A stretch of DNA of 64,000 bases from Pseudochelatococcus contaminans (GTDB taxonomy: Bacteria; Pseudomonadota; Alphaproteobacteria; Rhizobiales; Beijerinckiaceae), in assembly GCF_014195635.1 (NCBI RefSeq), contig NZ_JACICC010000008.1, forward strand, positions 62,001 to 126,000, read 5' to 3'. Position numbers and translations under genes: made by a program. Shown one piece after another: positions 6,358 through 64,000 of this stretch. Within the stretch, counting starts at the first letter, position 1; every line of letters starts with the position of its first letter. The notes beneath the pieces were generated by a model. That model saw only the letters and a program-made list of their open reading frames with translations. It was not told the origin of the DNA and made no database searches.

Positions 6358-7548
<1,191 letters not shown>

Positions 7549-54423: not shown

Positions 54424-55644
54424 TCAGGCCGCACTGCGACCCTTCTGACGGGATATAAGCATACCAACGACCTTTTCCAAAGCCGTTCTAAAAGAATCAA
54501 GATCGGCATCGCCCGATGCGTGGCCGATACTGACCCGCAACGCGCCTTCCGCCACCTCCGGCGGCACGCCCATCGCCTCCAGAACATGCGAACGCTTCAC
54601 CTTGCCCGACGAGCAGGCCGAACCCGACGAAACCGCGAACCCGGCAAGATCGAGAGCCATCAGCAACGTCTCCGCCTTCAGCCCCGGAACGGCGAAAGCG
54701 CTTGTATTGCTGAGCCGTTCGACGTTGCTGCCGAAAATTTCGGCTTGCGGTATCGTGGCTTTCAGGTCCCGTTCGAATCTGTCGCGCGCGGCCTTCAAGC
54801 GCGCTGGATACGCGTTGATACGCGACATTGCAAGGGCTGCTGCCAAGCCAAAGCCTGCGATACCTGCCACGTTCTCCGTGCCGGCACGCCGGCCGCGCTC
54901 CTGCCCGCCGCCACGCACCAGCGGGTGGCCAAGTTCCACGCCGCCCGCGCCAAGCACAAGCGCCCCCACGCCCTGCGGCCCGCCAAGCTTGTGCGCCGAC
55001 AATGTCAGCATGTCGACGCCAAGCGCGCCGATATCGAGCGGCATCCGCCCCGCCGCCTGAATCGCATCGGTATGCATCACACCGCCAGCCACATGCACGG
55101 CGGCCGCGATCTCGGCGACGGGTTGCAGCACCCCGGTTTCGCTGTTGGCCATCTGCACGCTGACCAGCGCACACCCATCAGGCTCCGCTGCCGCCAAGGC
55201 GGTCAGGCGTTCACGCAACCAGTCCAGCCGCACGATGCCGTTGTCATCGACTGGCAGCCGCTCGATCCTATCAGCGGCAAATCCGCCACCGGCCAGCACG
55301 CTGGGATGTTCGGTCGCGCCGATAAGAAGCCGCGTCACTGCCCGCGCCTCGCCCGTCGCACAGCCGCCGATGGAGCATGCGCCGGATACGCGCACCAGAG
55401 GCGTCAGCGCCATGGCGTTGGCCTCCGAGCCGCTGGCGGTGAAGATGACATTCTCCGCACGCCCCCCGACGAGCGCCGCCACCTTGACGCGCGCATCCTC
55501 CACGCGCCCGCGCGCGGCCCGTCCTTCAGTATGGACCGACGAGGGATTGCCCGTCAGCGCCAACGCGGCGGACATCGCCTCCAGCACCTCCGGCAGCAAG
55601 GGCGCGGTGGCGTTGTAGTCCAGATAGATGCGTTCGCGTGTCAT
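54424..55644 (-). CDS. Cysteine desulfurase, IscS/NifS type
   Basis: Second desulfurase of the SUF operon. 406 residues. The N-terminal LDYNATAPLLPEV, PLP lysine in LSAHKLGGPQG, and persulfide Cys C344 on the long mobile loop SSGSACSSGKVKRSHVLEAM place it in group I (IscS-like), which can hand sulfur on without SufE. It heads iscS-sufB-sufC-sufD-sufS-sufT-sufA. The Rrf2/IscR regulator gene that often precedes this order is missing. Confidence 0.92.
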   Translation of the reverse strand: MTRERIYLDYNATAPLLPEVLEAMSAALALTGNPSSVHTEGRAARGRVEDARVKVAALVGGRAENVIFTASGSEANAMALTPLVRVSGACSIGGCATGEARAVTRLLIGATEHPSVLAGGGFAADRIERLPVDDNGIVRLDWLRERLTALAAAEPDGCALVSVQMANSETGVLQPVAEIAAAVHVAGGVMHTDAIQAAGRMPLDIGALGVDMLTLSAHKLGGPQGVGALVLGAGGVELGHPLVRGGGQERGRRAGTENVAGIAGFGLAAALAMSRINAYPARLKAARDRFERDLKATIPQAEIFGSNVERLSNTSAFAVPGLKAETLLMALDLAGFAVSSGSACSSGKVKRSHVLEAMGVPPEVAEGALRVSIGHASGDADLDSFRTALEKVVGMLISRQKGRSAA

Positions 55645-55937
55645 CCTGCTCCTGATACCCCGCGTGTTGCCGCTGCCACCCTGTCAAGCCTGCCAGCTTC
55701 GGCAATCGGCAGTGTTTGCGCAATATGCTTGCTTTTTCCCCCCCGTGCCATGTTAGAGAGGCCGCATGAAAGCTTGCCGCGTCTTATGCCAGAATGCTTC
55801 AGCCGGAACAATTCCGGCCGCCGCGACCGACCCTTCAGGATCGACGTGCGGCAGGGAGCGCTACGCCGGCATGAGACCCCGCAACCTGCGTTGTGCCAAC
55901 GCAGCCGACCCCATGTAAACCGCACGAATGGTGTTCG

Positions 55938-56600
55938 ATGCCCGAGATTATCTTTTCCGGCCCTTCCGGCCGTATTGAAGGCCGCTATCATCCTGCCAAG
56001 GATAAAGGCGCGCCGATAGCGCTTATTCTGCATCCGCACCCGCAGTTCGGCGGCACGATGAACAACCAGATCGTGTACAATCTCTACTACACGTTCGTAA
56101 ATCGCGGCTTTTCGGCCTTGCGCTTCAACTTTCGCGGCGTCGGGCGCTCCCAGGGCACGTTCGACCACGGGGCGGGCGAACTGTCCGATGCCGCCGCGGC
56201 ATTGGACTGGGTGCAGTCGGTCAACCCGGAAGCACGCAACTGCTGGATCGCAGGCGTATCCTTCGGGGCATGGATCGGCATGCAGTTGCTGATGCGCCGG
56301 CCCGAGGTCGAGGGCTTCCTGTCGATCGCGGCCATGGCCAACCGATACGATTTCTCGTTCCTCGCGCCATGCCCGTCATCCGGGTTGTTCATCCATGGCG
56401 AGCAGGATCGCGTTGCGCCCTTGCGTGAGGTGATCAGCGTCATCGAGAAGGTCAAGACGCAGAAGGGCATCCAGATCGAGCACGAGGTCATACCCGGCGC
56501 GAACCACTTCTTCGACGGACAGGTGGAGCCCCTGATTGCGACAGTGGATTCGTATCTCGATCGTCGCCTCGGCCCGGCGCCTGCAAAGGAAGCGGAATAG
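55938..56600 (+). CDS. Alpha/beta hydrolase
   Basis: 220-residue alpha/beta-hydrolase starting MPEIIFSGPSGRIEGRYHPA. The nucleophile elbow is GVSFGAWIG (Gly-x-Ser-x-Gly), preceded by LHPHPQFGGTMNNQ and FNFRGVGRSQG. The acid is in HGEQDRVAPL and the His in GANHFFDG. The family is often annotated as a dienelactone-hydrolase-like or CocE-like small hydrolase; the substrate is unknown. It is divergent from the SUF operon, a neighbourhood often seen in alphaproteobacteria. Confidence 0.88.
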   Translation: MPEIIFSGPSGRIEGRYHPAKDKGAPIALILHPHPQFGGTMNNQIVYNLYYTFVNRGFSALRFNFRGVGRSQGTFDHGAGELSDAAAALDWVQSVNPEARNCWIAGVSFGAWIGMQLLMRRPEVEGFLSIAAMANRYDFSFLAPCPSSGLFIHGEQDRVAPLREVISVIEKVKTQKGIQIEHEVIPGANHFFDGQVEPLIATVDSYLDRRLGPAPAKEAE

Positions 56601-56862: not shown

Positions 56863-56939
56863 GGCCGCTTGCCGAAACTGGTAGACGGAAGGCACTTAAA
56901 AAGTCTTTTTTCTACCATCCCACAAAAAAGTTCGCGGCC
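56863..56939 (+). pseudogene. Degenerate tRNA-Leu-like element
   Basis: The sequence GCCGAAACTGGTAGACGGA (56871-56889) closely resembles a tRNA-Leu D arm, and the following CTTAAAA (56894-56900) is a complete Leu(UAA) anticodon loop with no intron. The flanking AGGCA/AGTCT gives four of five stem pairs. GGCCGC (56863-56868) can pair with GCGGCC (56934-56939) as an acceptor-like stem, but no proper T arm or CCA end is seen. A competing hairpin TGGTAGA/TCTACCA (56879-56885 with 56911-56917) exists. It is best read as a decayed tRNA-Leu gene or a tRNA-like structure. Confidence 0.4.
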
Positions 56940-57058
56940 GAGAAAAGATAGGATAAGCAATGCATTAGGAGGCGTTGGCTTTCGAGGGTGAAAACGAACG
57001 ATTCGGCGCTAGGTGCAACATAGGTGCAGAGAGCTAGGGTTAGAATCGGCGGCAAAAG

Positions 57059-57357
57059 GCGGACGTGGCGAAATCGGTAGACGCAGCAGACTTTAGAATT
57101 GGAGTGCCCGCGGGGAAATCCGCGGAGTAGAACCGCTCAAAGTCGGGGAAAGCTAACGGGCACTGCCCTAAGCCAATCCCGAGCCAAGCCCCGTGAGGGG
57201 AAGGTGTAGAGACTGGACGGGCGGCGTCTAAAGCCTTCGGGCCATGGCGAAGGGACAGTCCAGACCACGAACGCCGAAAGGCGGCGGCGAAAGTCGAGGT
57301 GGTACGAAAATCTGCTTCTCTGTGAGAGTACGGGTTCGAGTCCCGTCGTCCGCACCA
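57059..57357 (+). tRNA. tRNA-Leu (UAA) interrupted by a group I intron
   Basis: Exons 57059-57093 and 57307-57357 join to an 86-nt class II tRNA with an encoded CCA. Acceptor stem GCGGACG/CGTCCGC; D arm GCGAAATCGGTAGACGC; anticodon stem GCAGA/TCTGC around CTTAAAA; variable arm CTC-TGT-GAG; T stem ACGGG/CCCGT with loop TTCGAGT. The intron splits the anticodon between U34 and A35, the same position as in cyanobacterial and plastid tRNA-Leu(UAA). Without splicing this tRNA cannot function. Confidence 0.93.
57094..57306 (+). ncRNA. Group I self-splicing intron in tRNA-Leu(UAA)
   Basis: 213 nt, no ORF, ends in the obligatory G (57306). P1 pairs 57090-57094 with 57101-57105, including the U57093-G57102 wobble at the 5' splice site. 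P2 is 57108-57114/57119-57125 with a GAAA loop. P3 is 57133-57138/57219-57224, and P4 is 57143-57147/57178-57182. P5 extension GGGC/GCCC is at 57158-57167. P6a CCCC/GGGG with a GTGA loop is at 57189-57200. P7 is 57211-57215/57256-57260, P8 is 57234-57239/57248-57253, and P9 is 57264-57268/57299-57303 with a GAAA-capped P9a. Core segments such as CCAATCCCGAGCCAAGCC and AAGGTGTAGAGACT resemble the cyanobacterial IC3 tRNA-Leu introns. Confidence 0.92.
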
Positions 57358-57388
57358 AAATCTACCAACACTTTCCAAGGTTGGGTCG

Positions 57389-57416
57389 AGGGTTCGAATT
57401 TCCTTCGCTCGCTCCA
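57389..57416 (+). other. tRNA 3'-end-like fragment
   Basis: GGGTTCGAATTTCC followed by a short stretch ending GCTCCA looks like a T loop, acceptor 3' strand and CCA end of a tRNA, 32 nt after the tRNA-Leu. The T stem does not pair well and no 5' part is present. It may be the remnant of a tRNA gene or of an integration site; chance is possible. Confidence 0.25.
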
Positions 57417-57612
57417 GTTTTCTCCAAAAAAATCAGCTTTTTAGAACATTCTCTTCGAGACATTTTTGCTACACGGGCTTTCCGGCCGGTCGTGGAAGCA
57501 CCATGTAAGCAGCGGAGAGGACATTGAGGGATATTGCAGCGTCCTATGGGCCGGTGTGTGCGGCTTGCACGGTGCTGGCATTGGTGGTCGGTTCGCGTGG
57601 ATATGGGAAGAG

Positions 57613-58839
57613 CTACGGCTTTTGCGTGTAGCGCGACGCCGCGGGAACAGAATAAAGTTCAACCTGCTCGGCGAAGCCTCTGAGATCGTGACGACCGACC
57701 GGGATCACCGTCCTCAAATCGAGAAGCGTCGCGAAACGCTTTGACATCAAAAGCGGGCAACCCGTCGAGCTGCACACACTCTGAATGCGGCTTACAAGAT
57801 TAACATCCCGACCGATCAGGGTGAAATCCAGCCGGTGACCGGACCCGATATTGCCGTATCCGGCCTCGCCGTAATGTAGAGCAATGCCAGCATCGAGGTC
57901 AGCATCGGGTGCTGTAAAACGGGCCAAGCTGTCCAAGGCGCCCAAAGCGCCCCGTAGGGCAGCGGAGCAGGATGCAGCGCTGCTCTCGTGATGAAAAAAG
58001 GCGAGCACCGCGTCGCCCATGAACTTGATTACCTCACCTCCTTCTCGCGTGATCGCCGGCAAGATTCGGTCGAAATACGAATCGAGCAATTCGAGCACAC
58101 GAGACCCCGGCAATCTGTTGGATAGATCCGTAAAGCCGCGCAAATCGCACAGCAGCAATGCAGCCTCGAAGGCTTCGATTTCGCCGCGACGTATGTGACC
58201 GGCCATGACCCGTCGTGCCGTCGTCGCTCCGACATATGTGTTCAGCAGGGTCAGTTCTGCCCTTCTGAGCGTGCGTAGTTCGCAGGCGTTTCGCAATGCC
58301 GGTATTATCCGCTCCAGCACCGCTCGCACACTCGACGTAAAGCCGCTGGCTCGTGTCGTGGAGAAAGATGCGGCGCTTACGAGACCGTCGGCCCCGCATA
58401 GCGGCACAAAAATAAACTCCTTCAAACCTCGGCCGCGGTAGAGGTCCGTATGAACCCAAGTAGGCTCGACGGAACCGTGGAGGCGTACTGTCAGCGCCTC
58501 GCGCGTGTTCATGACGCGTCGAAGCGGGCTGTCCGAGAACCCAGGCGTAGTTTCAATGCCTCGCTCCCTATCGAGCACCTCAACGGATTCTCCCGGCGAC
58601 CATGCCACGCTACGCCCGAGGTACTCGGGATGAAGGGTTCGGAAGTGGAGCGTGAGCCTGTCGAGCGGCAATCCAGCGGCGCACAAGCATTGCCCCAGCC
58701 CCTCCGCCAGCGTCGCTTCGTCAAGATCATAGCATTCATCCCCCGCGAGCCATTCGATTAATTCGACGGCCACTGTTGGATCAACGGGATCGCCAGCGAC
58801 CTCCGACGGTGATTTTCGTGTCGTCCGCTCTTCGGTCAT
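57613..58839 (-). CDS. Class III adenylate/guanylate cyclase
   Basis: 408-residue soluble protein. The N-terminal part (about 30-200) resembles a GAF-like sensor domain (FIFVPLCGADGLVSAASFST). The C-terminal part is a class III cyclase catalytic domain. The metal-binding aspartates are in LLCDLRGFTDLSNRL and KFMGDAVLAFF, and the Lys of EVIKFMGD and the LIGRDVNLVSRIQ segment are catalytic or structural. Similar proteins in alphaproteobacteria are annotated as adenylate cyclases. It makes a cyclic nucleotide from ATP or GTP, which cannot be told apart here. First gene after the tRNA-Leu, on the opposite strand. Confidence 0.88.
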   Translation of the reverse strand: MTEERTTRKSPSEVAGDPVDPTVAVELIEWLAGDECYDLDEATLAEGLGQCLCAAGLPLDRLTLHFRTLHPEYLGRSVAWSPGESVEVLDRERGIETTPGFSDSPLRRVMNTREALTVRLHGSVEPTWVHTDLYRGRGLKEFIFVPLCGADGLVSAASFSTTRASGFTSSVRAVLERIIPALRNACELRTLRRAELTLLNTYVGATTARRVMAGHIRRGEIEAFEAALLLCDLRGFTDLSNRLPGSRVLELLDSYFDRILPAITREGGEVIKFMGDAVLAFFHHESSAASCSAALRGALGALDSLARFTAPDADLDAGIALHYGEAGYGNIGSGHRLDFTLIGRDVNLVSRIQSVCSSTGCPLLMSKRFATLLDLRTVIPVGRHDLRGFAEQVELYSVPAASRYTQKP

Positions 58840-58921
58840 TATTTTTCTTTCGTTCTGGGCTGCCGCGAGCTACGGCGCCCTCTTCGGATCTCCTCTCAAG
58901 TCCGCGTCGCAGTGCCTTCGT

Positions 58922-60535
58922 TCACGATGGCTGCCGACGGGAGGCTTTCGAGAACTTTGAAATGACGATCTTTGCAGTAACGAGCACGGGCGCGGCCGCG
59001 AGGAAGAACAGCGCGATCGTTAGAAATGCGGTATTGAAGGCGATCACCGTTGCCTGAGTTGCAATTTCGCGACCGAGCATCTGAATGGCGGACTGGGCGG
59101 CTGCGCCTGCTTCCATGCCGCGAGCCGTCAGGGCCTTGGTCATCATCGCAATGTGCTCAGACACGGCGATGTTGCCGGGCACGATGTGAGCGCCTAGCAC
59201 GCTTTTATTCAGGGCGGTCTGATGATCAATAAGCGTTTCAAGGAACGCGACACCGAGCAGACCGCCCGTTTGACGGCCAACATTAAACAGGCCGACGCCA
59301 TACGCCACGAGTGGCCGCTGAAGGTCTACGAGCGTGATCAACGTGATCGACAGGAACAGGAAGCCGAGACCGAAACCTCGAAGGACAATGGCGGGCATCA
59401 TGTCTGGTGCGCCGCTCTCACCATTTGATCCAGACAGCATCCACATCGTCGCCATGAAAATAAGTATGCCGAACGGGACCGTAATGATCGGCGGGCGTCC
59501 TCTTCGGACGAGGAAAGCTGTTATCAGCAAGCTTGCGATGAACACGCCGCCGCTGGGAAGCAGGAGCATGCCTGCACCCGTCGCGGTCATTCCCAGAACA
59601 GAAACGGCAAAAGACGGTATGAGGTAGGCGCTGCCGAACAGCGCCACGCCTGCTGCAAAGCTCGCCAGAAAGCCGAAGGCAAATCCTTCATCCCGGAAAA
59701 TCGCGAAATTAAGCAGAGCGCCATTGCGCTGCGCGCGGAATTGCTGGAGGAGGAACAGTAGGAACGCAAGTCCGCCGATGGCGGAAAGACGGCCAATGCG
59801 AGGCTCTTCGAGCCAGTTCCAACGGCTTCCCTGATTAAAGACATAGGTCAGGCAGAAAGCCGCGATCGTGAAAAGCGCGAGTCCTATCCAATCGAGACGC
59901 GCCTGGTGTACTTCGGTATCCTTGCCGAGGTTCGTCGATGCAAGGATCGCTACGCCCGCCAACCCGACAGGTACGATTGCGAGGAAAATCCAGGTCCACG
60001 ACAAGGTATCGATGAACCAGCCCTGCATAGATGGCGCTAGAGTCGCGGGCGCGACGACGGCTCCCATCGCGAATAGCGCTTGAATGATAGGTTGTTGTGT
60101 ACGCGGGAATGCCTGCAACAGCATCGTTTGGCCGCTCACAAGCAGAAGGCCACCCGACATTCCTTGCAAGAGTCGCAAGAAGAACAGGAGATCGAGATTG
60201 GCCGTGAAGGCCGCACATCCGCACGCAAGCGTCATAAGGCCCGTGGCCGCTCGAAGGCACGTTTGCGCGGAAAGCCGACCCATCAACCACGGCGCAAGCA
60301 GAAAGAAGCACAGCTTTACGGCAGTATAGCCGACGTCGAGGCGCGCGAATTCATCGGGCGTGGCATGGATGTCGCCCAACATATCCAGGCGTCCGAATGA
60401 CAAGATTGTAGAAGCGACTGCCTCGGTGAGCGCTGAGAGCGTGACACCGACAACGAGTAATGCCGCCGATGTCGCTCCGAGGGGGTGGCTCACCGAGGCA
60501 GCCTCAACCGGATCAGTTGCGTGGGTGGGGGTCAA
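58922..60535 (-). CDS. emrB: MFS multidrug efflux transporter, DHA2/EmrB type
   Basis: Inner-membrane proton antiporter with about 14 membrane segments. 537 residues. The region after helix 4 (LLQGMSGGLLLVSGQTMLLQ) and the central FNQGSRWNWLEEPRIG linker are typical of the DHA2 family. A TTG start at 60535 overlaps the upstream emrA stop (TTGA, 60535-60532), with GGGAGG 9 nt before it, so the pair is translationally coupled. Pumps of this type export drugs or hydrophobic toxins; the substrate is unknown. Confidence 0.88.
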   Translation of the reverse strand: MTPTHATDPVEAASVSHPLGATSAALLVVGVTLSALTEAVASTILSFGRLDMLGDIHATPDEFARLDVGYTAVKLCFFLLAPWLMGRLSAQTCLRAATGLMTLACGCAAFTANLDLLFFLRLLQGMSGGLLLVSGQTMLLQAFPRTQQPIIQALFAMGAVVAPATLAPSMQGWFIDTLSWTWIFLAIVPVGLAGVAILASTNLGKDTEVHQARLDWIGLALFTIAAFCLTYVFNQGSRWNWLEEPRIGRLSAIGGLAFLLFLLQQFRAQRNGALLNFAIFRDEGFAFGFLASFAAGVALFGSAYLIPSFAVSVLGMTATGAGMLLLPSGGVFIASLLITAFLVRRGRPPIITVPFGILIFMATMWMLSGSNGESGAPDMMPAIVLRGFGLGFLFLSITLITLVDLQRPLVAYGVGLFNVGRQTGGLLGVAFLETLIDHQTALNKSVLGAHIVPGNIAVSEHIAMMTKALTARGMEAGAAAQSAIQMLGREIATQATVIAFNTAFLTIALFFLAAAPVLVTAKIVISKFSKASRRQPS

Positions 60536-61578
60536 CGCGCATCGCCTCCCGATCCGGTTGTACGAATGGCAACACGCGCCGATAGCCCAGGCACGAGGCG
60601 TCCCTGCAGCGGATTTCCGTCGAGAGTGATCTTGACCGGCACGCGCTGGACGACGCGGACAAAATTCCCGGTTGCGTTGTCAGAAGGTATCAGGCTGAAT
60701 GATGCACCTGTGCCAGGAGCAAGGCTGACAACCGTTCCAGTTATCTCAGCATGTGCGTAGCCATCGATCCGTATCCTTGCCTTCTGACCTGGCTGGATGT
60801 GTTCGAGTTGGACTTCCTTGAAATTGGCGACAAGCCAGATGTTGTCGACGGGCACAATATCGAGCAGCGATGTCCCGGTAGTAACAAAACGGCCAACACG
60901 AGCCTGTCGATTGCCGATTACTCCCGCTACGGGAGCGCGGACGACCGTGTTGTCTAGATCGATTTGGGCGAGATCGCGAGCTGCCTCGGCCTGCTTCAGC
61001 GCCGCCTCAGCAGCCTGTTTCTGGGCAGCAAGTGCATTCAGTTTCCTATTGGCCGCCTCCAAGGCCGCCTTCGCACCATCGACGGCTGCATTGGCTTGCT
61101 CGCTGCCGGCCTGCGCCTGCTCGAATTGTGCCTCGCTCGCTGTGCGTGATCGGGCGAGGCTCTCATAGCGCTCGAAGTTCAACCGCGCGAGAGTTTGGGC
61201 GGCAACTGCCGAGGCCAGTTGCGCCTTCGCTTGCGCGATGGCCGCGTCCTGCAAGCTACGCTCCGCTTCCAGATTGGCCAAGGCGGCATTCGCAGCCGCA
61301 ATATTTGCATCTGCCTGTGCGAGCCGGGCCTTATAGTCACGGTCGTCGATGCGAAACAGGATGTCACCGGCCTTCACCTGTTGGTTGTCATCGACGCGCA
61401 CATCAACGATATAGCCCGCCACTTTCGGAGCGAGTGATGTGATATCTGCCCTGAGATAGGCGTTGTCGGTGGTCTCTTCGTATCTCCCACTCCCCCACCA
61501 GCCCCAACCCATGACGCTTAGGGCAAGTATTAGGCAGGCCAAACCGCCCAAGATCACAATTCTAAGAAGTCGTTGCAC
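60532..61578 (-). CDS. emrA: Membrane-fusion efflux subunit, HlyD/EmrA type
   Basis: Periplasmic adaptor of the EmrAB-type pump. 348 residues. One N-terminal membrane anchor (IVILGGLACLILALSVMGWG), then a biotinyl-lipoyl-like half (LAPKVAGYIVDVRVDDNQQV), an Ala/Gln/Glu-rich coiled-coil hairpin (about 95-190) and the returning lipoyl half (VRAPVAGVIGNRQARVGRFV) with the beta-barrel domain. Faces tetR across a 95-nt region with a palindromic operator. Confidence 0.9.
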   Translation of the reverse strand: MQRLLRIVILGGLACLILALSVMGWGWWGSGRYEETTDNAYLRADITSLAPKVAGYIVDVRVDDNQQVKAGDILFRIDDRDYKARLAQADANIAAANAALANLEAERSLQDAAIAQAKAQLASAVAAQTLARLNFERYESLARSRTASEAQFEQAQAGSEQANAAVDGAKAALEAANRKLNALAAQKQAAEAALKQAEAARDLAQIDLDNTVVRAPVAGVIGNRQARVGRFVTTGTSLLDIVPVDNIWLVANFKEVQLEHIQPGQKARIRIDGYAHAEITGTVVSLAPGTGASFSLIPSDNATGNFVRVVQRVPVKITLDGNPLQGRLVPGLSARVAIRTTGSGGDAR

Positions 61579-61615
61579 GAATGATCACCTTTGGTACGGA
61601 CTATTACCAGTTGCC

Positions 61616-61648
61616 TTGACCAGTACGGTAACTTACCGTACCCGTCAA
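61616..61648. promoter_or_regulatory. Divergent emrA/tetR promoters with a 19-bp palindromic operator
   Basis: GTACGGTAACTTACCGTAC (61623-61641) is a perfect palindrome with 9-bp arms. On the minus strand TTGACG (61648-61643), a 17-nt spacer and TACTGG (61625-61620) make an emrA promoter whose spacer is filled by the palindrome. On the plus strand TTGACC (61616-61621) stands 17 nt before a weak -10. A repressor bound to the palindrome would block both. A weaker GGTA/TACC repeat lies at about 61592-61607. Confidence 0.75.
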
Positions 61649-61673
61649 TTGGAATCTGCGTTGGAGAGTCAGA

Positions 61674-62321
61674 GTGACCAGTTCAATCACTGCAAGGCGC
61701 CGCGCCTCGGAGCAGCGGAGAGCCACCATCCTCAAGGCGGCGGCGGCTGTCTTTTTCGAGCAAGGCTACGCAGCCACGAGCATCGACGCAATAATCGCGC
61801 AGATCGGCGGATCTAAACGCAACATCTATAACGAGTTCGGCAGCAAGGAGGGCCTGTTCACGGCACTCGTCTCGGAAGCCGCGGAAGAAGCGCTGGAAGC
61901 CCTTGCGGTCGAAAACATCGGCAGTCGCGATCTTGACGGATCGCTAAGCGAATTCGGGCGCCGGCTTCTGGGTATATATATGTCATCGACGCTCATCGGT
62001 GTGCTCCGTACCGTAATGGCAGAGGCCTCACGTTTTCCGGAGCTTGCAAAGGCCTTCTACGAGAAAGGACCCGGACGCACGTCTGATCGGCTGACCGCTG
62101 TCCTTGAGGTGGCTCGTGCGAGGGGCGAGATTGACGTCCCCGATTGCCGCATGGCGGCCGAACACTTCGTCGGCATGCTGCGCGACAACCTGCATCTGAG
62201 GGTACTTCTCGGGCTACAAGATCCGCCGGAAGCGAAAGATGCCGAAGCTATCGTCGCGTCGGTGGTGAGCATCTTCCTCAAAGGCGTACGAGCCGATCGC
62301 ACCGTCTCGGAGATGCACTGA
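61674..62321 (+). CDS. TetR/AcrR family repressor, divergent from emrAB
   Basis: 215 residues with an N-terminal helix-turn-helix (about 17-60: ILKAAAAVFFEQGYAATSID, then IGGSKRNIYNEFGSKEGLF) and a C-terminal ligand domain of the AefR/TetR_C type (ELAKAFYEKGPGRTSDRL). The GTG start has GGAGAG upstream. Its position opposite emrAB and the palindrome between them make it the likely local repressor. A close paralogue is encoded at the right edge of the window. Confidence 0.92.
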   Translation: MTSSITARRRASEQRRATILKAAAAVFFEQGYAATSIDAIIAQIGGSKRNIYNEFGSKEGLFTALVSEAAEEALEALAVENIGSRDLDGSLSEFGRRLLGIYMSSTLIGVLRTVMAEASRFPELAKAFYEKGPGRTSDRLTAVLEVARARGEIDVPDCRMAAEHFVGMLRDNLHLRVLLGLQDPPEAKDAEAIVASVVSIFLKGVRADRTVSEMH

Positions 62322-62472
62322 AAACCCATTTATACCATGAAAGATACCCGCACGGGCGAGCAATATGCTCGCGCGCGCAATCTCGCTGCGACTGATCCAG
62401 CAAAGCATCGATGAGCGTCATAGGGGCGACTTTATCCCGCTCAAGCAAATCAAAACTCATGTCGGGGAGGCA

Positions 62473-63489
62473 ATGCCGGATCTATCGCTCGATTTGAAAT
62501 ACCTACGGTATGCACTTGCCGCAGCTCAGCACCAAAGTTTCCGGCGCGCGGCGTCAGCGCTTAATATCTCACAATCAACTTTGGTGCGGCGGGTGCAGTT
62601 GCTTGAGCATAGAATCGGCTTTCGCATATTTGACCGCGGCCCTAGCGGGGTAAGGCTAACCAGCGCAGGCGAACTTTTCCTCGAAGAGGCATCGGTAGGA
62701 ATGCATCAGCTCAGCCACGCAATTGAACTCGCATCGTCGGTTCGACGCGGCGAGCGTGGGGAGATTCAGGTAGGCGTTCTATTATCGCTTGCTGCTGGCC
62801 CCCTCCACATTGCGCTTCGGGAGTTCCACCGACGCTATCCGCATATTCGGGTATCATTCCACGAAGGAACCGCCGAGCAAGACCTCGCGCGGGTGACGAC
62901 CGGAGAACTCGATATTTCCTTCATCGCCGGAGAACCGAAACTCGCGGGGCAAAAGGCCCTTCGGGTTTGGTCGGAAAGCGTCCATGTCGCCCTTCCCGCT
63001 GACCATCGTCTAGCTGATCATCACGAGTTGCATTGGTCCGACCTCAAGGAGGAGACTTTCTTGGTGACGCGGCAAGGTGCGGGACCGGAGGTTCGGGATT
63101 ATCTCGTGCGAAAACTATCGGCGCCTGGCTTCAGACCAAAAATTGATGTTCACAATGTCAGCCGGCAGAGCCTCCTCAATGTTGTTGCGATGGGATACGG
63201 CATTACGCTCGCGAGCAGTTCCATCATTGGTGGTACGGCGGACGGAATCAGGTTTCGCCCCATTTGCGGCGATCCCGAGTTGCTCCCTTGGACGGCGATC
63301 TGGTCACCGGGAAACTCAAACCCCGCGCTTCAATACCTGCTTCGCATTGTCAATGAGGTCTCGTCGGGCAAAATGCCAAAGCGCCACGCGAACGGAGTCC
63401 GGCGGTTCATCGCGTTCGCGGTCTATTTCAATGCCTTCCAGCACTCTTGGATTGACGCGATGGGCCAGCTTCTTGAGGCGATTCTCTGA
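62473..63489 (+). CDS. LysR family transcriptional regulator
   Basis: 338 residues from MPDLSLDLKYLRYALAAAQH. Winged helix-turn-helix at about 8-65 (FRRAASALNISQSTLVRRVQ, then RIGFRIFDR), followed by a periplasmic-binding-protein-like effector domain (GEIQVGVLLSLAAGPLHIAL and later GYGITLASSS). The C-terminal tail of roughly 35 residues beyond the domain is longer than usual. The start at 62473 follows GGGGAGG closely; an earlier in-frame start (62365) is possible but lies outside homology. The target is unknown; neighbours suggest efflux or stress genes. Confidence 0.85.
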   Translation: MPDLSLDLKYLRYALAAAQHQSFRRAASALNISQSTLVRRVQLLEHRIGFRIFDRGPSGVRLTSAGELFLEEASVGMHQLSHAIELASSVRRGERGEIQVGVLLSLAAGPLHIALREFHRRYPHIRVSFHEGTAEQDLARVTTGELDISFIAGEPKLAGQKALRVWSESVHVALPADHRLADHHELHWSDLKEETFLVTRQGAGPEVRDYLVRKLSAPGFRPKIDVHNVSRQSLLNVVAMGYGITLASSSIIGGTADGIRFRPICGDPELLPWTAIWSPGNSNPALQYLLRIVNEVSSGKMPKRHANGVRRFIAFAVYFNAFQHSWIDAMGQLLEAIL

Positions 63490-63514
63490 TTTGAGGGCCG
63501 ACTGCGCACATTAC

Positions 63515-64000
63515 TCACTGTGGACGCTTAGGTTGGGTGAGAATGCCGTCGAGGAAAATTGCCACAGCAGAATCGACGACCTTCTTCTTCTCGTCCACAG
63601 TCAACGGAGGTTGCAGACCTAGCACGACGCGCAGGTGAATGTTGTCGCGTAGCATTCCGGTGAAATGATCTGCCACGATGCGGCAATCGTCAATTTCAAT
63701 CTCGCCGCGCTGCTTTGCGTCTTCCAACACCTCGGCAAGCCGAAGAGCAGTACGGCCAGGACCGCGATCATAGAACGCTTTCGCAAGATCCGGGAATCGG
63801 AACGCCTCGGCCATCGTCACCCGATAGACGCCGATTAGTTTTGGCGACATGTAGATTTCGATCAGCTTTTGGGCAAATTCTGTGAGGGTCTCGCGCAGAT
63901 TTCGCCCGCCGATTTCCTCGGCGGTGAGCGCTCGAAGTGCGCTTTCTGCCGCTTCGGAGACAATCGCCGTGAACAGGCCCTCCTTGCTGCCGAACTCGTT
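63515..64000 (-). CDS. TetR family regulator, N-terminus beyond window edge
   Basis: 161 codons plus stop; the frame is open to the last base. It begins inside the helix-turn-helix (NEFGSKEGLFTAIVSEAAES) and continues through a C-terminal domain with DLAKAFYDRGPGRTALRL and HFTGMLRDNIHLRVVLGLQ. It aligns without gaps over most of its length to the TetR at 61674-62321, and the first 35 bases of the shared segment are identical, so the two are recent paralogues. A downstream start would give only 111 residues and is not credible. Confidence 0.88.
   Translation of the reverse strand, partial: NEFGSKEGLFTAIVSEAAESALRALTAEEIGGRNLRETLTEFAQKLIEIYMSPKLIGVYRVTMAEAFRFPDLAKAFYDRGPGRTALRLAEVLEDAKQRGEIEIDDCRIVADHFTGMLRDNIHLRVVLGLQPPLTVDEKKKVVDSAVAIFLDGILTQPKRPQ

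Follow-up and report, generated by a model that had tools for sequence, protein, structure and literature searches.

According to our analysis, the intron-bearing tRNA-Leu(UAA) gene of the window, by which we mean the whole 64,000-nucleotide stretch of DNA analyzed here, was probably brought in as a spare by a mobile element that split the native tRNA-Leu(UAA) gene of its host, and the intron of the spare likely masks it from the integrase of that same element. In the mechanism that we propose, the integrase would recombine attP with the anticodon loop of the host gene through a 7-nt core, CTTAAAA. Integration would leave the host tRNA unrebuilt, so that the cell would decode with the copy of the element after self-splicing of its intron. 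An unsplit spare placed 164 nt from attL would represent a second target for the integrase, which the intron would remove, and elements carrying such genes between bacteria could spread tRNA introns without a homing endonuclease. The features of the window on which this reading is built are collected in Table 1.

Table 1. Features of the window around the split tRNA-Leu(UAA) gene (window positions; C7 and C8 are contigs of the assembly)
Feature	Position	Strand	Basis or remark
Gene for alpha/beta-hydrolase, host chromosome, left of the insertion	55893..56600	+	Pfam
Native host tRNA-Leu(UAA), 5' half, up to the anticodon stem	56863..56894	+	Joins 3' half at C7:179938-179991(-)
attL core CTTAAAA, equal to the anticodon loop	56895..56901	+	Comparison of both junctions in three genomes; identical 7 nt at attR (C7)
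Portion of the predicted element in the window	56895..64000		Continues along C8 (end 150448); integrase and attR at C7:179938-187601
Likely arm-type integrase sites, CTAGGTGCAACATAGGTGCAG	57009..57029	+	Comparable repeats at the left end in nine elements, and at right ends
5' exon of the element's putative replacement tRNA-Leu(UAA)	57059..57093	+	Exon splitting, exon joining
Predicted group I intron of 213 nt, separating U34 from A35 within a copy of the att core (CTT^AAAA)	57094..57306	+	RF00028, covariation, spliced exons
3' exon of the putative replacement tRNA-Leu(UAA), encoded CCA included	57307..57357	+	Exon splitting, exon joining
tRNA-Gly(UCC)-like sequence, imperfect 3' two-thirds	57366..57416	+	Local alignment with the tRNA-Gly of the window
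Cargo: adenylate/guanylate cyclase domain protein	57613..58839	-	PF00211
Cargo: MFS transporter	58922..60535	-	PF07690
Cargo: HlyD-type membrane-fusion protein	60532..61578	-	PF16576/PF13437
Cargo: TetR-type regulator	61674..62321	+	PF00440/PF14246
Cargo: LysR-type regulator	62365..63489	+	PF00126/PF03466

Just upstream of the intron-bearing gene, positions 56863 to 56901 constitute the 5' half of the host tRNA-Leu(UAA), core included, while the native 3' half is located on C7, beside a gene encoding a tyrosine integrase. In each of the three genomes in which the native halves were joined, namely, the window genome, Enterovirga aerilata, and Bradyrhizobiaceae AGun1, they make up a perfect tRNA-Leu(UAA), and CTTAAAA, which makes up the whole anticodon loop, is common to the left and right junctions in three genomes. 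An intact tRNA-Leu(UAA), 98% identical to the joined halves, is present in both of the sister species inspected (G005 and G047), where the only match to the intron model is a tRNA-Thr intron. In G005, the intact tRNA-Leu (L295) has the same left neighbor gene, since window positions 55385 to 55769 (73%) and 55928 to 56584 (83%) align beside it; the G047 locus (L294) gave no match to the left neighbor region of the window. As the halves join perfectly and the sister species keep the gene intact, we consider the native tRNA-Leu(UAA) to have been split by insertion, and the sequence of the element completes the host tRNA at neither junction. Positions 56863 to 56901 had also been considered as a decayed tRNA copy, which was ruled out, the half being undamaged and pairing with the half on C7.

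These junctions bear on whether the intron is simply a chromosomal tRNA-Leu(UAA) intron that descended vertically with the host lineage and lies beside a decayed tRNA copy. The wide distribution of the intron lineage in the class (49 of 385 genomes) agrees with such an origin, which is nevertheless highly improbable given the intact intronless gene at the site in sister species, the undecayed upstream half with its partner on C7, and the 97% identity of the intron to that of a metagenome-assembled genome (MAG) named Bradyrhizobiaceae. Vertical inheritance of the intron at the site was rejected, being contradicted by the empty sites in the sister species and by the junctions. The suggestion of horizontal acquisition made in the initial annotation is borne out. 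The gene appears to serve as a replacement tRNA carried by an integrative and conjugative element.

In BLAST searches with the flanks, the 190 nt upstream of the replacement tRNA were found to be conserved in Enterovirga, in the Bradyrhizobiaceae MAG (AGun1), and in a Novosphingobium MAG. This conserved stretch starts with the 5' half of another tRNA-Leu, the matching 3' half of which lies 58 kb away in Enterovirga and about 35 kb away in AGun1, with both ends on one contig; there, the 3' half adjoins a divergent gene whose product contains the domains Phage_integrase and Arm-DNA-bind_3. The integrase of the window genome (C7:180170-181486) adjoins attR and is 91% identical to that of Enterovirga. 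Counting against the proposed mechanism, a second integrase paralogue (65%) is encoded in the window genome at C20:15145-16341 (L287, L289), and no tRNA-Leu half was detected within 700 nt of it. The tRNA-Gly(UCC)-like piece that follows the replacement tRNA in the window was not seen at that place in Enterovirga or AGun1.

The window contains the first 7.1 kb of the element, comprising the att core, the likely arm sites, the replacement tRNA at 164 nt from the core, and cargo. Conjugation genes were identified by Pfam on C8, some 12 to 27 kb to the right of the tRNA; their products are TrbI, CagX/TrbG, TrbL, TraG, a relaxase, a T2SSE-type ATPase, and a TrbE-like protein. Along the backbone, there is colinearity with the Enterovirga element (77% over 8.6 kb, plus further blocks) and, in part, with the AGun1 element. 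In the latter (L167 4181-7932), arsenic-resistance-like genes are apparently located right of the tRNA, as read by eye from the list of open reading frames. C8, which ends at 150448, and the integrase end on C7 (to 187601) are separate contigs in the assembly, the span between them not being seen; we infer that they carry the two ends of a single element, which, if this is so, would measure at least about 39 kb. Repeats similar to CTAGGTGCAACATAGGTGCAG also occur between the attR core and the integrase gene, and these repeats are likely arm-type integrase sites. With an integrase, two att junctions, conjugation genes, a coupling protein, and a relaxase, the element is by predicted gene content of the integrative and conjugative type. 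A temperate phage is not what we found: conjugation genes are present, and a search of 50,697 phage records with the left end gave three hits, all weak and partial.

As for the split gene itself, the initial annotation had described a complete tRNA-Leu(UAA) interrupted between U34 and A35 by 213 nt, and this proved exact to the base, the joined exons of 57059-57357 forming a perfect tRNA-Leu(UAA) cloverleaf according to ARAGORN. Both the Rfam scan at gathering threshold and ARAGORN run without introns overlooked the tRNA and intron at this location, and ARAGORN run with introns called the locus tRNA-Stop, with wrong borders. The Infernal search with the Rfam group I model that had been proposed as a check did return a match of RF00028 at 57084-57286 (37.8 bits, E value of 6e-8), which lies below the Rfam gathering score of 50. 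The further claim that all core group I helices are present withstood comparison with relatives: in a set of 16 related introns, window intron included, 94.8% of the cells in the named helices P2 to P9 are paired, against 32 to 47% in a slid-partner control on the same introns. Changes on both sides were counted in 26 of the 60 helix pairs of this set, with 0 of 500 shuffles equally high, and are present in each counted helix except P4 and P9b; P7, the guanosine-binding helix, covaries from U-A to C-G and from A-U to G-C. P1 was read in the sequence as ACUU/GAGU, the 5' splice site being marked by a U-G pair and the last base of the intron being a G, as stated earlier, and the same is seen across the family alignment. 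Positions 57094 to 57306 are therefore classified as a group I intron with core helices P3 to P9, predicted to be self-splicing, and the precursor of the replacement tRNA would need to be spliced in order to serve decoding. The efficient ribozyme suggested in the initial annotation is likewise a prediction.

The genome yielded 49 tRNA hits, of which 45 were named, three weak ones (L011 to L013) are without a name, and one (C11:19-92) was outside the naming set. Neither Leu(UAA) nor Thr(UGU) is among the 45 named hits, and no further tRNA-Leu(UAA) gene was found among them. As part of a refuting case, the initial annotation had envisaged a cell served by a second, intact tRNA-Leu(UAA); no such gene was found here, the native one being broken. 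The cell may thus depend on the replacement, which is the only tRNA-Leu(UAA) found in the genome; we treat the need for a replacement tRNA-Leu(UAA) as an assumption, since UUA codons are absent from the 12 genes counted (5 of the host and 7 of the element).

A second group I intron was observed in this genome, in tRNA-Thr(UGU) and also at 34/35 (C1:108976-109195; L001 1477-1789). The two sister species have it as well, as do the betaproteobacteria Massilia (L235) and Thiobacillus (L240), and the tRNA-Thr(UGU) introns of all these genomes form one clade (99/91) in the 52-row tree. A search of the open-licence literature, which is no proof of absence in print, revealed no bacterial tRNA-Thr(UGU) group I intron among the matches listed. 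This intron, the broken native tRNA-Leu(UAA), and the setting in an element were all absent from the earlier reading.

That the intron plays a protective role is suggested by a family of related elements. Of 385 genomes of the class, 2 yielded integrase homologues (E up to 1e-100), as did 9 of 397 genomes of the family, and at 11 of 12 integrase loci a tRNA-Leu 3' half is located 177 to 188 nt (once 385 nt) from the integrase start. The cores at these 11 loci are CTTAAAA, corresponding to a UAA target, in five cases and CTCAAAA, corresponding to CAA, in six. Nine left ends display the same order of a 5' tRNA half, the core, and a replacement tRNA that starts 142 to 205 nt from the core, and the interval contains paired GGTGC/GGAGC-like repeats; the left end of the G309 element is at C4:191773. 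All five UAA elements, three of which were found via the intron and only two (G942 and G920) via the integrase alone, carry a replacement tRNA-Leu(UAA) split by an intron at 34/35. Four of the six CAA elements carry instead an intronless tRNA-Leu(CAA), whose loop reads TTCAAAA rather than CTCAAAA as in the core; in the other two, no replacement tRNA was seen in the next 1.1 kb. The intact core is absent from each of the nine replacement tRNAs seen, owing to the intron in five and to a base change in four. Since the UAA spares are intron-split in five of five cases and the four CAA spares are intronless with a changed core, we deem it likely that the intron masks the spare; protection by base change in the CAA elements argues against masking to the extent that the intron is not the sole route to it.

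Some further loci resemble these elements in part. In Novosphingobium (L174), the left end is present with an altered core (CTTGAAA), and neither a right half nor an integrase was found with one pattern and one integrase query. At L232 and L268, an intron-bearing tRNA-Leu is preceded by a tRNA-Leu 5' half, and a piece of a PF07508 recombinase lies near L232. Integrase homologues also occur on 117 plasmid records, mostly conjugative plasmids, with 60 to 80% identity in 116 of them.

The intron might alternatively be a passenger, the element having captured a tRNA-Leu gene that already bore it, without any protective role. Native tRNA-Leu genes of the same exon class do contain the intron in several genera, its presence varies at a single locus within genus g24 (with it in G024, without it in G063), the AU test on the 28-row tree does not reject one capture common to the elements (p = 0.387), and the CAA elements manage without it. 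We regard this as unlikely, although clearly less so than vertical descent at the site, in view of the nine replacement tRNAs without an intact core, five by intron and four by base change, and of the position of the intron exactly within the 7-nt core. Returning to masking, a wider claim, to which we give somewhat less than an even chance, is that a group I ribozyme acts as an integrase shield inside the 7-nt core and that selection together with transfer has spread endonuclease-less tRNA introns, up to a fragment on plasmids. For the movement of such tiny introns between bacteria, a conjugative element in need of an integrase-proof spare would provide both a vehicle and a reason.

With regard to the origin of the intron, RF00028 matched 31 of 149 genomes of the family. 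Matches to the intron-core model occur in 3 of 3 genomes at the genus level, 49 of 385 at the class level, and 41 of 398 at the phylum level. Scanning named genomes with a pattern gave at least 117 stretches; among the matches listed, 54 are from alphaproteobacteria, 15 from beta- and 5 from gammaproteobacteria, 12 from cyanobacteria, 6 from Acidobacteriota, 4 from Bacteroidota, and 21 from others. When 80 of the listed stretches were compared with the core model, 77 matched with an E value of 0.01 or lower, and for 76 of these the value was below 1e-9. Among viral contigs, eight stretches with tRNA 5' sequence were found, and none of the eight contains the intron. Exon splitting, which was automatic, as are the labels, assigned a host tRNA to 196 of 218 core matches and left 22 unsplit; 13 labels of tRNA-His(AUG) appear to stem from mis-split Arg(CCU) genes, and certain of the rarer labels are open to doubt. 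The 184-row tree set comprises Leu(UAA) (98 outside cyanobacteria and 11 within them), Arg(CCU) (30), Met(CAU)-labeled rows (12), Lys(UUU) (6), Thr(GGU) (6), Thr(UGU) (5), Lys(CUU) (5), and 11 others. It leaves out 7 duplicate loci, introns shorter than 170 or longer than 340 nt, and rows labeled Pyl, Pro, Gln, Asn, Asp, or His, relabels L055 and L228 as Leu, counts mis-split Arg rows as Arg, and includes two added element introns. From the host assignments in these 184 rows, the intron family occupies several host tRNAs and several positions of the anticodon loop. Related introns in genomes of the class were observed in tRNA-Lys(CUU) at 35/36 (L057, L107, L109, and L115), in tRNA-Thr(GGU) at 36/37 (L117, L118, and L121), and in tRNA-Lys(UUU) at 35/36 (L127 and L129). 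At one tRNA-Leu(UAA) locus in genus g24, the intron is present in L074 (G024) and precisely absent in L315 (G063).

The initial annotation had offered two origins, a cyanobacterial source and a little-noticed alphaproteobacterial lineage. Relatives of the intron in various tRNAs in 49 of 385 genomes of the class favor the second, and the predicted intron lineage is widespread and largely alphaproteobacterial. In the 52-row tree, the rows of which were hand-picked, as were those of the 28-row tree, the 11 introns from cyanobacteria group in a clade of their own (98/96), and the window intron falls into a mainly alphaproteobacterial clade of 36 rows (98/99); it is 97% identical to the intron of the MAG named Bradyrhizobiaceae. 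Derivation of the intron or of the tRNA gene from a cyanobacterium would account for the identical insertion position, 34/35 of tRNA-Leu(UAA), and forcing the window intron to group with the cyanobacterial ones is not formally rejected at the 5% level (AU p = 0.082). We nonetheless see hardly any likelihood of such a source, which the annotation had entertained and which finds no support in the separate, supported cyanobacterial clade and the alphaproteobacterial nearest rows.

The left end of the element is also encountered on plasmids. The segment 56894-57357, which runs from the att core to the end of the intron-bearing tRNA, matches 1300 of 72,556 plasmid records, 1222 of which cover at least 80% of the query and 1247 of which are 90 to 95% identical, with hosts mostly belonging to Enterobacterales and Acinetobacter. 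With a plasmid copy as the query, it was found in 645 of 5426 complete E. coli genomes. On the two plasmids inspected out of the 1300, L330 (NZ_CP096170.1) and L329 (CP099719.1), the copy spans 7001-7463 and adjoins a gene for an AAA-family ATPase and aac(3)-II, in a gene table in which RNA genes are not listed. On one plasmid read base by base, the similarity begins at the A before the core CTTAAAA, and the DNA to the left is unrelated. These observations suggest that aac(3)-II is flanked there by a piece of such an element that had inserted at a different site.

If this reading is correct, tRNA-dependent integration would be extended from phages to conjugative elements, a host tRNA gene would have been swapped for an intron-bearing one, the intron would acquire a role in DNA that can be tested, and such an element would be connected with the sequence flanking aac(3)-II on the two resistance plasmids inspected. 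Among the matches listed in the open-licence literature, we found no report of an integrative or conjugative element with a replacement tRNA split by a group I intron, which is no proof of absence in print.

Several known systems resemble parts of what is proposed here. The group I introns of cyanobacterial tRNA-Leu(UAA) share the tRNA and the insertion position with the window intron but form a separate clade, and to our knowledge they are not known as cargo of such an element. The group I introns of alphaproteobacterial tRNA-Arg(CCU) belong to the same 36-row clade of the 52-row tree as the window intron, and their transposition was reportedly described by Paquin in 1999. Unlike the window intron, they reside in another tRNA and at 36/37; the one of Bartonella splices both in vivo and in vitro, and the available parts of the report on it mention no integrative element (PMC7717549).

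In Sinorhizobium meliloti, phage-related sequences bring replacement tRNA genes (PMC11476347), whereas another group of Sinorhizobium prophages rebuilds its own target tRNA (PMC12429752). The former case is similar to ours in that alphaproteobacterial mobile DNA replaces a host tRNA gene, and it differs in that the replacement tRNAs are described with no mention of an intron in the text available (0 hits; PMC11476347). Closest in mechanism is the tRNA-dependent lysogeny of actinobacteriophages, where the phage breaks the host tRNA and brings its own (Guerrero-Bustamante and Hatfull 2024, PMC10865867). As far as the available text of that paper goes, it has in common with the present element a tyrosine integrase, a short common core, a host tRNA left unrebuilt, and a cognate tRNA brought along, and the word intron occurs in it only in one reference title; the element studied here is distinguished by its conjugation genes and by a replacement split, inside the core, by a predicted ribozyme. 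The putative element fits tRNA-dependent integration, the host gene being broken and the cognate tRNA brought, and works like tRNA-dependent lysogeny proper while standing outside it.

Finally, Randau and Soll proposed in 2008 that tRNA introns block integration in archaea (as cited in PMC3293823 and PMC4090602). The shielding of an attachment site by an intron is common to that proposal, as conveyed by the citing papers, and to ours; there, the genes concerned are archaeal host tRNA genes, whereas here the shielded gene would be the element's own and the intron a group I ribozyme.
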